Part shown: positions 27,006-35,569 of the stretch, in pieces
Layout: every line of letters begins with the position of its first letter
How positions within the stretch are numbered: position 1 is the first letter of the stretch
The notes under the pieces: model-generated
What the model saw: only the letters and a program-made list of their open reading frames with translations
Database searches by the model: none
What the model was told of the DNA's origin: nothing
NCBI RefSeq assembly: GCF_000007345.1
Contig: NC_003552.1
Span: forward strand, 992,001-1,056,000
DNA from: Methanosarcina acetivorans C2A
GTDB taxonomy: Archaea > Halobacteriota > Methanosarcinia > Methanosarcinales > Methanosarcinaceae
Reading direction: 5' to 3'
Length of the DNA: 64,000 nucleotides
Translations under genes and position numbers: made by a program

Positions 27006-28928
27006 TTACCCCATTATGTTTTTCTGTAGTTCCGGGCCAAGTTCTTTTACAACGTTCACCATTGCCTGCACGGTTGTCAGGGGACCACCTGGCGGGATCT
27101 CACAGCCGGAGGACAGGATATACTTGGACTGGAGGCCGTTCTCCTTGAGCACTGGCAGCACGTTTTCGAGCAGGTTCTTGGTGTCGTCCTTTACCTTCTG
27201 CACTCCGGCTGCCGATCCGTCCATGAACTCAACGGGGTTGACTTCTCCCATCATACAGCACATATCTCCGTATTTGGGGATGAGGTCTGCGTAGTTCTGG
27301 GACCCCTTGTCTCTGGACTTCTCGTAGTAGGCGTAGCTGTAGAGGGCTGTTCCGAACTTTCTGATCTGGGTCTCGAAGTGCACGGCGTCAGCACAGTTGT
27401 GGATGATGTACGGCTGGTTGTACTGCTTGAATATGGGGATCTGCTGGTCGTAGACAAACTTTCCGTCAAATTTCCAGTAGTCCTGCTCGCTCATGATCAC
27501 ATTATTGGACCAGAGGTTGTCGATACAGAGAGCATCACAGGCGTCTTCGTTAAAGAAGAGCTCTGAGAGCTGGCAGACATAGTCAGTACACTTCTGGACA
27601 GCTTCAAGGACAACATCCGGCTGGGTCTTCATGTCCATAAGGACGCGGTCTGCACCCATCAGCTGGGTAAGGGTGAGCAGGGGGCCCTCGTGGAAGCCGA
27701 CAAAGGGGGTGTTGAGTTCCTTGTTGAGTTTTTCCTTTGCTTTCTTTGAGGCCATGACCAGTTCATAGCCGCGGGTACCTTCCTTAAGTTCGGGGACTTC
27801 GATCTTCTCATAGTCCTTGATATGTCCTTCAGAGGATGGGGTGTCGTCTTCAGGGTATTTGATCTTACAGCCGAAGTCTGCAGATGTTGCGGAAAGGTCA
27901 ATCAGGCCTACAAACATGTCAAGGTCCAGGTATTTTGAGCCAAGGTATGCGCTCTGTACAAATGCATCTTCATTTGTGGCATACTCTTTGTAGGTTACAG
28001 GGACAAACTTCCTGAGGACACCGCAGGCGAGAGGGTAGACAGGCAGGTGGTCGACCTTCTTGTCGGACATGGCAGAAATAGTCCTGTCGATGTGGGTCAT
28101 TTCCTCCTTGCTCTTCACGCCAATGCTTTCGAACTCTTCTTTGATCTTGTTAGCAGTTTCAAGCCCGACATCCACTTTATCGGAAACTGTCTTCTTTGCA
28201 AGAATCTCCCTGTACTTGATCTTCCCGAGGTTGATCTTCTCTTCACTCCACCTTGCAGCCTTGGGCTCAAGTTCCTTTACGGCTTCGGACGCCCAGGCGC
28301 TTGCGTGCATTGCATCGGGGTGGGTTGAGTCTGCTCCGATTCCGGACGCATACTCTTCGGAAACGGGAGCTCCTCCAATCATGACTTTCATGGAGTCGCG
28401 GATGCCTTCTTCCTGAAGGATTTCAATGACTTTTTCCATATTGGTCATGGTTGTGGTCATCAGGGCACTCATGGAGATGATGTCGGCTTTGCGTTCCTTT
28501 GCGGTTTCGACAAATTTCTCGATAGGTACATCTGCCCCGAGGTCGATCATCTCAAATCCGCCTGCACTGAGCATGGTCTTTACAAGGTTCTTCCCTATGT
28601 CGTGCACATCTCCTTCAATCGTCCCGATGACTCCCACAGCCTGCATGGCTTCTCCTTCCTTTATCATCTCAGGGCTGAGGATGTCCATGCCTGCATACAT
28701 TGCACCTGAAGCCAGGAGCAGGTGGGGTACGAAGGCTTCTCCTTTTTCGTACTGGTCACTGACAATTGCCATCCCTCTTGCCAGCCCGTTGACAATAGCG
28801 TCGTAGGGGTCAACGCCTTCTTCCAGGGCTTTGTATGCCAGTTCTTCTGCGAGGTCATCGTCTCCGTCGACGACAGCTTCCGCTAATTGGTTCAAAATAT
28901 CTGCTGCCATAAAAAACGCTTCCAACAT
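27006..28928 (-). CDS. mtsF: corrinoid protein / methylcobamide:CoM methyltransferase fusion (methyl-sulfide type, MtsD/F/H family)
   Basis: 640 residues. Residues 1-230 form a B12-binding corrinoid domain: a helical cap, then GDVHDIGKNLV with H109 as the cobalt ligand, then SALMTTT and GGAPV. Residues about 290-640 form a UroD-like methyltransferase with zinc ligands H510 and C512 (IIHNCAD) and C609 (SSGCEIP). This one-polypeptide layout is that of MtsD, MtsF and MtsH, which M. acetivorans uses to transfer methyl groups from dimethylsulfide and methanethiol to coenzyme M. The neighbours (ASKHA ATPase, chaperonin, Msr regulator) resemble the mtsF locus as I recall it, so the symbol is tentative within the D/F/H set. 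Two ATGs are possible. 28928 is listed; 28910 has a better placed GGAAG site. Confidence 0.9.
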   Translation of the reverse strand: MLEAFFMAADILNQLAEAVVDGDDDLAEELAYKALEEGVDPYDAIVNGLARGMAIVSDQYEKGEAFVPHLLLASGAMYAGMDILSPEMIKEGEAMQAVGVIGTIEGDVHDIGKNLVKTMLSAGGFEMIDLGADVPIEKFVETAKERKADIISMSALMTTTMTNMEKVIEILQEEGIRDSMKVMIGGAPVSEEYASGIGADSTHPDAMHASAWASEAVKELEPKAARWSEEKINLGKIKYREILAKKTVSDKVDVGLETANKIKEEFESIGVKSKEEMTHIDRTISAMSDKKVDHLPVYPLACGVLRKFVPVTYKEYATNEDAFVQSAYLGSKYLDLDMFVGLIDLSATSADFGCKIKYPEDDTPSSEGHIKDYEKIEVPELKEGTRGYELVMASKKAKEKLNKELNTPFVGFHEGPLLTLTQLMGADRVLMDMKTQPDVVLEAVQKCTDYVCQLSELFFNEDACDALCIDNLWSNNVIMSEQDYWKFDGKFVYDQQIPIFKQYNQPYIIHNCADAVHFETQIRKFGTALYSYAYYEKSRDKGSQNYADLIPKYGDMCCMMGEVNPVEFMDGSAAGVQKVKDDTKNLLENVLPVLKENGLQSKYILSSGCEIPPGGPLTTVQAMVNVVKELGPELQKNIMG

Positions 28929-31721: not shown

Positions 31722-32522
31722 TCAGGTCTTCTCTAATTCGATTTCCCTTATTTCCTTTGAGTTTTTCATATAGTGCAAAAAGAGGTCTTCTCCCCATTTG
31801 AGGGCGGTTTTTTCCAGACTCATCATTGCATGGTTATGATAGATCCCGTTTTTGTAGAAGAGGGACAGGGCCATGAAGTGGTCCGTTACCAGGCTTGAAG
31901 CAAGCCTTATGGGGCAATCGCAGACGAAGATTTTTGCATTATCTCTGTCCAGGTATTCTTTGAGGGCTGTGCTGTATTCCTTTTTCAACCTTTCAAACAC
32001 AGGTTTTGTGATTATCAGGGATACGTCCGCTCCTTTTTTAATAAGCTCTACATAGGTTGAAGGGTAAGCAGGGTTGAAATAGGATGAGACTTCCATGACG
32101 TGGGCTGAGCGGGTCAGTTTTTCTTCGATTTTCTGGGGAATTTCATACATCCTGTCCAGGTCGGGTTCGATGAATTCACAGTGTCCGAGGTCATCGATCC
32201 GGTCCAGGAGGTGGACAGGGATAGCACTTATATTATGGTTTTCCCAGTAATCCATGTTCTCCGAAAATACTTCCAGGGTGTTCAGCAGAGGCCTCATTTT
32301 TTTAACGACCACTTTTCCGATATCTGATAGCTTGTACAGGTCGTCTTCATGGATGATAAGCCCCTGGCTGATGAGGATCTTGATCTGGGTCATGATCGCA
32401 CTTGAAGTCACGTTGAGGATGTTTTTAATGTCATCAATATTCCTGGGCTCCTCCATCAATAGCAGAAGAAGGTCTTTTCTTTTGTCCGAAAGAAAAAGGG
32501 TACCCAACAGTTCCAGTTTCAT
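31722..32522 (-). CDS. Msr-family transcriptional regulator (winged helix plus DUF1724)
   Basis: 266 residues, ATG at 32522 with GGAG about nine bases upstream, TGA stop. The N-terminal 75 residues form an ArsR-like winged helix (FLSDKRKDLLLLLMEEPRNI, then a recognition region at NVTSSAIMTQIKILISQGLI). The remainder is the DUF1724 sensor domain, with ADVSLIITKPVFERLKKEYS and a metal- or ligand-like CDCPIRLASSLVTDHFMAL patch. Msr proteins in M. acetivorans activate the adjacent methyltransferase genes; MsrC, MsrF and MsrG control mts genes. This gene should therefore regulate the mts fusion at 27-29 kb. It lies 119 bp downstream of the sensor kinase gene on the same strand, so the two may be co-transcribed. 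Confidence 0.9.
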   Translation of the reverse strand: MKLELLGTLFLSDKRKDLLLLLMEEPRNIDDIKNILNVTSSAIMTQIKILISQGLIIHEDDLYKLSDIGKVVVKKMRPLLNTLEVFSENMDYWENHNISAIPVHLLDRIDDLGHCEFIEPDLDRMYEIPQKIEEKLTRSAHVMEVSSYFNPAYPSTYVELIKKGADVSLIITKPVFERLKKEYSTALKEYLDRDNAKIFVCDCPIRLASSLVTDHFMALSLFYKNGIYHNHAMMSLEKTALKWGEDLFLHYMKNSKEIREIELEKT

Positions 32523-32641: not shown

Positions 32642-35569
32642 TCAAGACTCTATTTGATTCATGCGTCGGGTTTCAGGCTTCTTTTTAGGGAGCCTTACAT
32701 GCATGGTTGTGCCCGAACCTTCCTCGCTTTCTACCCAGATTTCCCCCTCATGGGCGTTGACAATGTTTTTGCAGATATAGAACCCCGATTCAAGGCCCTG
32801 ATACCTGCGGGTGAGGGAATCGTCCACCTGGTAGATCCTGTGGAAGAGGTGGGGGATAAGCCTTTTCTGGATGCCTGTTCCGCTGTCCTTTAACGTTATG
32901 TGGATAGTCTCTTCTTCCTCTTCAGCTTTCACTTCCAGGGTTCCGCCGTGGGGGGTAAACTTGATAGAGTTGCCCATCAGGGTCGTGAAAAGGTCTGTCA
33001 GTTTTTGCTTGTCCCCACGGATAGGCGGGAGGCTTGCAGGGAGTTCCTTTTCGACCTTCAGTTCTTTTTCATCAATCAGGAGGACAAGATTGAGGTAAAC
33101 ATCCGAGAGTATCTTCTTGATTTCTACCTCGCCAAAGGAATACTCTATCTTCCCTGCCTGTTCCAGGCTCAGGTAGAGCAGGGAATCAACCATGTGTTTC
33201 AGCCTTTCCGAGCTGTTGATAACGGTGTCGATTGCCTTCTGCTGCTGGTCTTCAATTGCCTCCCAGGTCTCAAAATCAATAAAATCGCCGTAGTCAACCC
33301 TCATAAGGGGCAGGCTTTCGGTCATAAATTCCGCTTTTATCCTGTTCAGGGACCTCAATTCGTCATTGGCTTTGGAAAGATCTTCCGAGTAAGCTTTCAG
33401 GGCGTCTTCAAGCTGCTTTCTCTGGATGAGCTGCCACATGCCCTGCATAAGCAGAGTGAGCTGGCGCAGGTCCGATTCGTCATAGGGCTCGTCTTTGTTT
33501 CCAACTCCCGCAACCGCAACGATCCTGTCCCCGTCAAACACTGGAACATTCATATGGCGGGTAAGGTGTACGTGGTCTTTAGGGTATCCTTTTTTCAGGG
33601 AACTCGGGGCTGTGTAGTCATTTGTGATTATAGGCTTACGCTGCCGGACGGCTTCTCCCCAGAGCCCTGTAGTCTTTACGGGATAAATGAAGCGCTTGTC
33701 TTCGATAGCACATTCTTCCATGGCGCTCTTTGACCAGGAGTGCATGATCAAGGAGGTTTCGTAGGCATCCATGAAGGCAAGGTACCCGAGTTTGCTGCCC
33801 GTAAGCCTTACCGCCTCTTCGCGGGCAAAGTCCGTGATCTCTTTTAAGGAGGCTCCCGTCATCTGGTTGAGTTTCACAAGGGCTTCGAGCCTGGCTTCGT
33901 TCAGTTTCTGGGCAGCTTCTGCTTTTTTGCGCTCTGTGATGTCCCTGGCAACCGAGAGGATAGTTTTCTTGCCTTCATAGTCAATGATCCTGGCGCTTAC
34001 TTCGAGGGGGACAACAGTGCCGTCCTTGCAGACCGCCCCGGCTTCATAGACCCTGGACCCCTCGCTCTGGATTTTCTTGAGGTTCTCCCGGACCGAGGCC
34101 CAGTACTCGGCAGGGATAATCTCTTCGGCTTCCATTTTCAGGATCTCTTCCTTGTCATATCCGAGCCTGCTTACCACCGCCTGGTTTACATCCATGTAAC
34201 TTTCTCCTTCGGGCTCGCGGATGTACAGCTGGTCATTGATGTTATTGAAGATGGTCCTGAACTTGTGTTCGGATTCTTTGAGGGTTTCTTCTGCCAGCTT
34301 ATGTTCAACTGCAATGGCTGCCAGCTGGGCGTTTGTTTTCATAAAGTCCAGGTCTTCTTTTTCAGGCCGGTGTACTTCGCCGTAGTACATGGAAAAGACT
34401 CCCAGGACTTCTCCTGAGGACGAAATGATTGGTTCGGACCAGCAGGCTTTAATCCCGGCTTCAGCCGCAAGGTCCCTGTATTCAGTCCAGTAGGGATGTT
34501 CCATCACGTTATCTGTGGTAACCCTTTTTTTCATGTAGGCAGCAGTTCCAAAAGACGCCGCCCCAAAACCGATCTCAATCCCGTCGGTCTTCTGAATGTA
34601 ATAAGCAGGAAGTTCGGGGGCAACGCAGTAAAAGAGGTGCTTTTTCTCCCGGTCAAGTAGCATTATCGAGCATCTCGAACCGGGCCGGATCTTTTCAACG
34701 TTCTGGACGAGGAGCAGGAGCATTTCTTCCAGGGGGGCTCCCGACGCTAGTTTTCCCAGTACCCGGTTTTGCCCTTTGATCATCTCTTCGGCAAGCTTAC
34801 GTTCGGTGATGTCCAGGACTATCCCCTGGTAATGAACTATTTCTCCTTTTTCATTCCTTTTGATAAGGGTCCTGTCATCTATATACCTCACTTTACCCGA
34901 CTTTGTCAGGACCCGGTACTCCTAGGTGCATTCTTCATACCCTTCCCTGGAAAACCTTGCCACTTCGGAACGGATTCTTTTCCGGTCTTCAGGGTGTATC
35001 AGGTCTTCAAACTTTATTTTTCCTGAGGTGAAATCTTCTGGGGTATATTCCAGCTTTGTAATATTTTCCGAGACAAATTCAACAGGCCATCTTTCTTCCG
35101 GCTTGCACAGAAACACAAACACGGGGCTGCTTTTGATGATGTTTTTGAGTTCGTTCTTCTTTTTCAGCGCCTTTTGTACCGATTCTTCGGCTTTTTTGCG
35201 CTGGGTAGCATCACAGAGAGTACCCTGGTAATGGCTCACGCGTCCATTTTCATCTCTCCGGATCAGAACCTTTACCTCAACCCAGCGCACTTCCCCCGAA
35301 GCTGTAAATATCCTGTACTCCTGGGTCAGCTCCGCACAGCCTTTTTCCGAACATCTGGCAACTTCCTCTTTTACCTTTTCCTTGTCTTCAGGGTGGACAA
35401 TATCAAGGTAACGTACGCCTCTCAATGTGAATTCTTCAACTTCATGGCCGAAATTCCTGACGTTTTCAGTGATGAGTTCGACAGGCCAGTTTTCAGTCGC
35501 CTTGCATAAAAAAATGACTATAGGGCTGCTGTTTATTAGTGATTCAAGATTTATATCGAACTTTTTCAT
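32642..35569 (-). CDS. PAS-PAS-GAF-PAS-GAF sensor kinase (MsmS/RdmS-like) with in-frame TAG
   Basis: 975 residues when the in-frame TAG at 34922-34924 (codon 216) is read through. Domains: PAS1 1-135, PAS2 136-250, GAF1 270-430, PAS3 435-550, GAF2 560-720, dimerisation region 735-800, HATPase 825-965. The TAG lies inside PAS2, where PAS1 has LTQEYRIFTASGEVRW and PAS2 has CT[TAG]EYRVLTKSGKVRY, so it replaces a glutamine (CAG to TAG). The second GAF holds C620, in the domain where MsmS carries its covalent heme. The usual H-box histidine is absent (EFMTESLPLMRV), while N-box NSIKFTP and G1 DSGTGI are intact. MsmS and RdmS are described redox sensors for Mts regulation. The kinase sits upstream of the Msr gene, which fits. 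Confidence 0.85.

Follow-up and report, generated by a model that had tools for sequence, protein, structure and literature searches.

An in-frame TAG codon, conserved and probably decoded as pyrrolysine, in the second PAS domain of the Methanosarcina acetivorans sensor kinase RdmS

The window, by which we mean the whole 64,000-nucleotide stretch of DNA analyzed here, lies in the 5,751,492-base genome of Methanosarcina acetivorans C2A and carries on its minus strand a sensor kinase gene together with genes for an MsrF-like regulator and an mtsD-like protein (Table 1). The kinase frame runs from the ATG at 35569 to the TGA ending at 32642 and specifies 975 residues with one internal stop. As the first-pass annotation had stated, and as translation bears out, this stop is a TAG at codon 216; under the standard code, the gene is read as two frames of 215 and 749 residues. 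Pfam places three PAS stretches, two GAF domains and one HATPase_c domain on the 975-residue product. The domain layout and the odd codon 216 match RdmS (MA0863) of M. acetivorans, an H-box-less cytosolic kinase (PMC11784639) for which ATP binding and hydrolysis have been reported (PMC11784639). The gene combines similarity to RdmS over its full length with an msrF and mtsD neighborhood and O (TAG) at position 216, and the order RdmS-MsrF-MtsD is preserved in 10 of 10 Methanosarcina/g5 loci. The earlier assignment of the gene to the MsmS/RdmS-type kinases of a methyl-sulfide (mts) locus is thereby supported.

Table 1. Features of the rdmS locus, with positions in the window.
Feature	Position	Strand	Basis
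rdmS (MA0863-like) sensor kinase, PAS1-PAS2-GAF-PAS-GAF-HATPase_c	32642..35569	-	translation, Pfam, 16 full-length orthologs
PAS1, ~residues 8-124, Gln at matching place	35198..35548	-	Pfam, PAS1/PAS2 comparison
PAS2, ~residues 142-262, TAG in beta strand	34784..35146	-	AlphaFold model, Pfam PAS_3
Cys214 codon TGC, two residues before TAG	34928..34930	-	alignment of PAS domains
TAG codon 216, putative pyrrolysine (O216)	34922..34924	-	translation; invariant in 16/16 orthologs; published as O216
GTG, proposed internal start, judged no start	34889..34891	-	not conserved among 16 orthologs
First GAF domain	34307..34732	-	Pfam
Third PAS domain	33911..34279	-	NCBIfam sensory_box stretch 431-553; Pfam
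Second GAF domain	33422..33853	-	Pfam
HATPase_c kinase domain	32681..33016	-	Pfam
MsrF-like HTH/FilR1_middle regulator adjoining rdmS	31722..32522	-	Pfam, synteny
mtsD-like fused corrinoid/methyltransferase, B12-binding + URO-D	27006..28928	-	Pfam, NCBIfam, synteny

An open frame that continues past a stop codon is insufficient evidence of read-through on its own, since tandem genes elsewhere in the window also share one frame. The TAG within rdmS is nevertheless not there by chance, as the protein runs through it inside a single PAS fold. The correspondence between the tandem PAS domains pointed out in the first-pass annotation was confirmed, with PAS1 having glutamine (LTQEYR) at the place of the TAG in PAS2 (CT[TAG]EYR). 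An AlphaFold model of the two tandem PAS domains, with a mean pLDDT of 84.6, has residue 216 within a strand spanning residues 213-221, and in related PAS domains the positions of this strand equivalent to 214, 218 and 220 are mostly occupied by F, Y and I/V. Residues 214, 216, 218 and 220 would share one face of the strand, and because this face bears conserved hydrophobic residues, residue 216 probably faces the PAS core or a cavity, an orientation derived from the alternation of side chains along the modeled strand.

The residue two positions before the TAG differs between domains with and without the codon. Among these related sequences, it is Cys in all 16 RdmS proteins and Tyr in 8 other TAG-PAS domains, and Cys or Tyr at this position accompanies 24 of 24 TAG domains as compared with 2 of 86 sense PAS domains; the sense domains have Phe or Leu in 82 of 86 cases, and Phe, Leu or Ile in 84. 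Given the shared ancestry of the sequences, the Fisher p-value of this contrast should not be taken as a probability. Since the residue at -2 changes together with the TAG, the alignment suggests that residue 216 itself matters. At the RNA level, the structure of the segment that starts at the TAG is unexceptional against the gene's background and Rfam gives no match around the rdmS TAG, leaving a conserved RNA element of the PYLIS type at the TAG unsupported.

Full-length RdmS orthologs are present in 12 of the 31 Methanosarcina genomes and in four genomes of the sister genus, with identities of 82-90% within Methanosarcina. No full-length rdmS ortholog was found in the remaining 19 Methanosarcina genomes, several of 4.5-4.9 Mb included. 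Within Methanosarcina, the 12 genomes with rdmS are also precisely those with the MsrF-like regulator, a coincidence implying that the locus and the kinase were gained or lost together.

Codon 216 is TAG in all 16 full-length orthologs from the two genera, each of which starts at the same ATG and terminates with TAA or TGA. With TAG at the same codon in 15 other orthologs from separate genomes, a sequencing error was rejected, and its invariance in 16 of 16 likewise disposes of a recent change private to M. acetivorans. The first-pass annotation had attributed the codon to one CAG-to-TAG change. The direction of that change fits, with CAG at the equivalent place in 17 of 18 sense homologs read in Methanolobus and genus g12, but the change is neither private nor recent: TAG216 is older than the split between Methanosarcina and its sister genus and is no recent CAG-to-TAG accident. 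The alternative kinase start at GTG 34891 that had been raised as a challenge to read-through fared worse. This site is GTG in 9 of 16 orthologs and GTA, GTT, ATA or ACC in the others, and an internal start whose codon is lost in 7 of 16 orthologs was rejected.

The persistence of the TAG can be set against the neutral rate. Four-fold sites over the tree of the 16 orthologs give a length of 4.7-5.2 changes per site, and if all three bases of codon 216 are taken to evolve like four-fold sites and any sense codon is presumed equally good, about 11-12 sense-restoring changes are expected at codon 216. None is seen (P ~1e-5 in this rough calculation); the same calculation at half the neutral rate gives P = 0.002-0.004. 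Purifying selection acts on the rdmS sequence on both sides of the TAG, with dN/dS of 0.13 in PAS1, 0.09 in residues 121-215, 0.08 in residues 217-265 and 0.06 in the rest, and such low values before and after the TAG indicate that both parts of the protein are used.

The same TAG is also found outside these two genera. When a collection of 84,980 species was scanned with a DNA pattern for TAG in the PAS motif, 13 stretches matched, all assigned to Methanosarcinaceae through their titles or through matches to the genomes analyzed and including Methanococcoides alaskense and a Methanohalophilus; the pattern matched nothing in any shuffle of the window. Kinases with TAG at the matching PAS position are encoded in four Methanococcoides and three Methanohalophilus-genus genomes. 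The domain order of these kinases is unlike that of RdmS. In the intact loci examined, from three Methanococcoides and two Methanohalophilus genomes, the TAG kinase adjoins MsrF, MtsD, hydantoinase-like and chaperonin-like genes as rdmS does, and these shared neighbors identify it as the kinase of the rdmS locus despite its different domain order. Methanolobus (genus g11, named by its place in the family) has the same msrF-mtsD locus with the codon CAG, and its use of glutamine there means that pyrrolysine is not required for such kinases generally.

The TAG-PAS domains fall into two well-supported groups in the PAS tree, RdmS and Methanococcoides/Methanohalophilus, with deep nodes that are poorly resolved. 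Holding these domains as one clade gives a likelihood 8.67 lnL units better than that of the free quick tree (p-AU 0.786), and when a Methanococcoides TAG-PAS domain served as query against 112 genomes, the seven closest PAS matches and the best ten were all TAG. The TAG loci are not monophyletic in the MsrF tree, where they require 2 changes, and a single clade is not rejected (p-AU 0.277). The TAG-PAS domain is likely to have arisen once and to have been lost or exchanged later.

Further TAG codons were encountered in the same group of organisms. A multi-PAS protein (L191, G052:C106:13524-13552) has TAG at the RdmS PAS position with Tyr at -2, whereas its sister PAS has Phe at -2; since the sister PAS has Gln at the TAG position, this TAG is apparently independent, through a separate origin or recombination. 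One of the three Methanohalophilus-genus TAG-PAS kinases mentioned above (L194, G067:C9:261500-264500) is truncated after the start of its GAF domain, and no close MsrF homolog was found in that genome. Three Methanococcoides-genus genomes (G051, G048 and G050) have a second PAS-GAF kinase (L075, L076 and L077, respectively) with its own TAG in the GAF domain at the place of RdmS Trp612; shared by three species at 78-79% identity, this TAG is a candidate for a further conserved pyrrolysine site. L079 (G064) and L078 (G067) are two more kinases with one TAG each, aligned with RdmS residues 775 and 664.

With respect to decoding, pylS is found above the cut-off in the genome containing the window (G000:C1:186303-187019) and in 15 of the 16 RdmS genomes, the exception being a metagenome-assembled genome that is 60% complete. 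The gene thus has what is looked for in a pyrrolysine protein, namely an in-frame UAG flanked on either side by sequence with coding homology, and a host with pylS. Moreover, a variant in whose name O denotes pyrrolysine, RdmS_O216K, appears in a 2020 paper that refers to the RdmS study of 2019 (PMC7542351). Because pylS is present and the residue has been published as O216, pyrrolysine decoding is the natural explanation of the TAG as a read-through codon, in agreement with the first-pass annotation.

We consider it probable that UAG216 is decoded as pyrrolysine by the organism's own pyl system to yield the 975-residue kinase, and that the codon has been kept by selection at the kinase gene of the msrF-mtsD locus since the ancestor of several Methanosarcinaceae genera. 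Pyl-tRNA would read UAG216 in vivo to give full-length RdmS, and the pyrrolysine side chain would act in the PAS2 sensor; the amount of full-length RdmS would also follow the supply of Pyl-tRNA as an automatic second effect. Heme binding by recombinant O216K protein (PMC7542351), together with the ATP binding and hydrolysis of RdmS, makes pyrrolysine probably dispensable for folding and for these activities. Lysine suffices for a heme-binding protein, so any role of residue 216 would lie in signal input or tuning. Some observations weigh against this interpretation. Deletion of pylT is reported to abolish methylamine use only, leaving cells unimpaired on methanol or acetate (PMC2933860), Methanolobus has glutamine at the site, and the MsrF tree does not group the TAG loci together.

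An alternative mechanism by which selection could maintain the codon is regulated termination, where UAG is kept because it halts most ribosomes, the functional output that reports Pyl-tRNA supply is a PAS1-PAS2 fragment of 215 residues, or its proportion to full-length protein, and the inserted residue is irrelevant. A UAG introduced into an M. acetivorans reporter gives mainly truncated product, with read-through of 20-30% (PMC2933860), the invariance of the TAG fits a selected stop equally well as a selected residue, and CAG or AAG is tolerated at the site in homologs. The TAG lies inside the PAS2 fold, however, so that the fragment would be without the last PAS2 strands, and the same TAG occurs in kinases of other domain order, in which termination would yield a fragment of no more than about 85-90 residues. 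The RNA around the TAG is no more structured than the gene's background, and the concerted change at the -2 residue points to a role at the level of the protein. On balance, regulated termination, although the strongest of the competing explanations, seems unlikely.

Pyrrolysine at position 216 could also be neutral, a CAG-to-TAG change having been harmless once UAG was readable and merely never having reverted. M. acetivorans Thg1, which carries an in-frame UAG, is the precedent for neutral pyrrolysine (PMC2933860), the CAG of the homologs is one transition from TAG, and the O216K protein could be made and binds heme (PMC7542351). This account has to contend with the lack of a single reversion among the 16 orthologs over 4.7-5.2 neutral changes per site, or among seven close relatives of two further genera. 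Thg1 as a control behaves unlike rdmS, its frame being interrupted (144 aa) in the window's genome and uninterrupted (243-286 aa) in 26 of the 29 other Methanosarcina genomes with a match; absence of the UAG from the orthologs of related species, which characterizes a neutral case of the Thg1 type, is not what is found for rdmS, where the TAG is in 16 of 16. We regard neutrality as improbable. As for a disrupted gene or sequencing error, with GTG 34891 or another internal start as the sole source of the kinase, the split into two frames by the standard code would agree with it, yet the TAG recurs in 16 genomes, purifying selection acts before and after it, the GTG is unconserved and a full-length variant that binds heme has been produced (PMC7542351). 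The likelihood of this explanation is negligible.

If UAG216 is read as pyrrolysine and selected, an intriguing question is what the residue might do. A kinase that has been described as a redox/thiol sensor could be tuned through the pyrrolysine imine, either by its binding of an amine or by its reaction with Cys214 close by. In its most specific form, which we put forward as a speculative and rather doubtful proposal, pyrrolysine 216 would serve as a chemical sensor: next to Cys214, on the PAS2 face turned to the cavity, its imine would reversibly capture either an amine, namely methylamine or ammonia, or a thiol, and this binding would switch the kinase. Such a sensor would give pyrrolysine its first selected function apart from the methylamine methyltransferases and would tie methylamine supply directly to the control of methyl-sulfide genes. 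More broadly, the retention of UAG at one PAS position of a sensor kinase in four genera suggests a second selected use of pyrrolysine, in signaling. The matter is easily testable, as M. acetivorans is genetically tractable and the O216K protein and pylT mutants already exist.

Pyl216 of RdmS is already known, and what is added here is its conservation and the evidence for selection. The published RdmS and RdmS_O216K represent the same gene, with the letter O at position 216 (PMC7542351). A 2013 survey (PMC3639795) ranked among its pyrrolysine candidates a sensory histidine kinase with a TAG, from M. acetivorans, M. mahii and M. barkeri, and considered that in this case "less neutral selection is probable". 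Cluster 16 of that survey probably includes rdmS, since a Methanohalophilus-genus genome (G064) has TAG at the same PAS site. Apart from the methylamine methyltransferases, the pyrrolysine proteins listed in a 2021 review are limited to transposases and Thg1 (PMC8211752). The RdmS papers cited here by PMC number do not address the conservation of TAG216, its selection or its occurrence in further genera.

The closest known relative in the same genome is the paralog MsmS (MA4561), which has a PAS-PAS-GAF-PAS-GAF-kinase layout like that of RdmS, is about 60% identical to it and adjoins an MsrF-like regulator. MsmS differs from RdmS in that the three copies read all have Lys (AAG) where RdmS has the TAG, and in having Phe at -2. 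Like RdmS, Thg1 of M. acetivorans is a non-methyltransferase with an in-frame UAG read as pyrrolysine; its TAG is missing from nearly all relatives and has been judged neutral, whereas that of rdmS is common to all orthologs found. In the methyltransferases MtmB, MtbB and MttB, the UAG is conserved since the residue is needed, and while pyrrolysine is catalytic in those enzymes, in RdmS it would reside in a sensory PAS domain.
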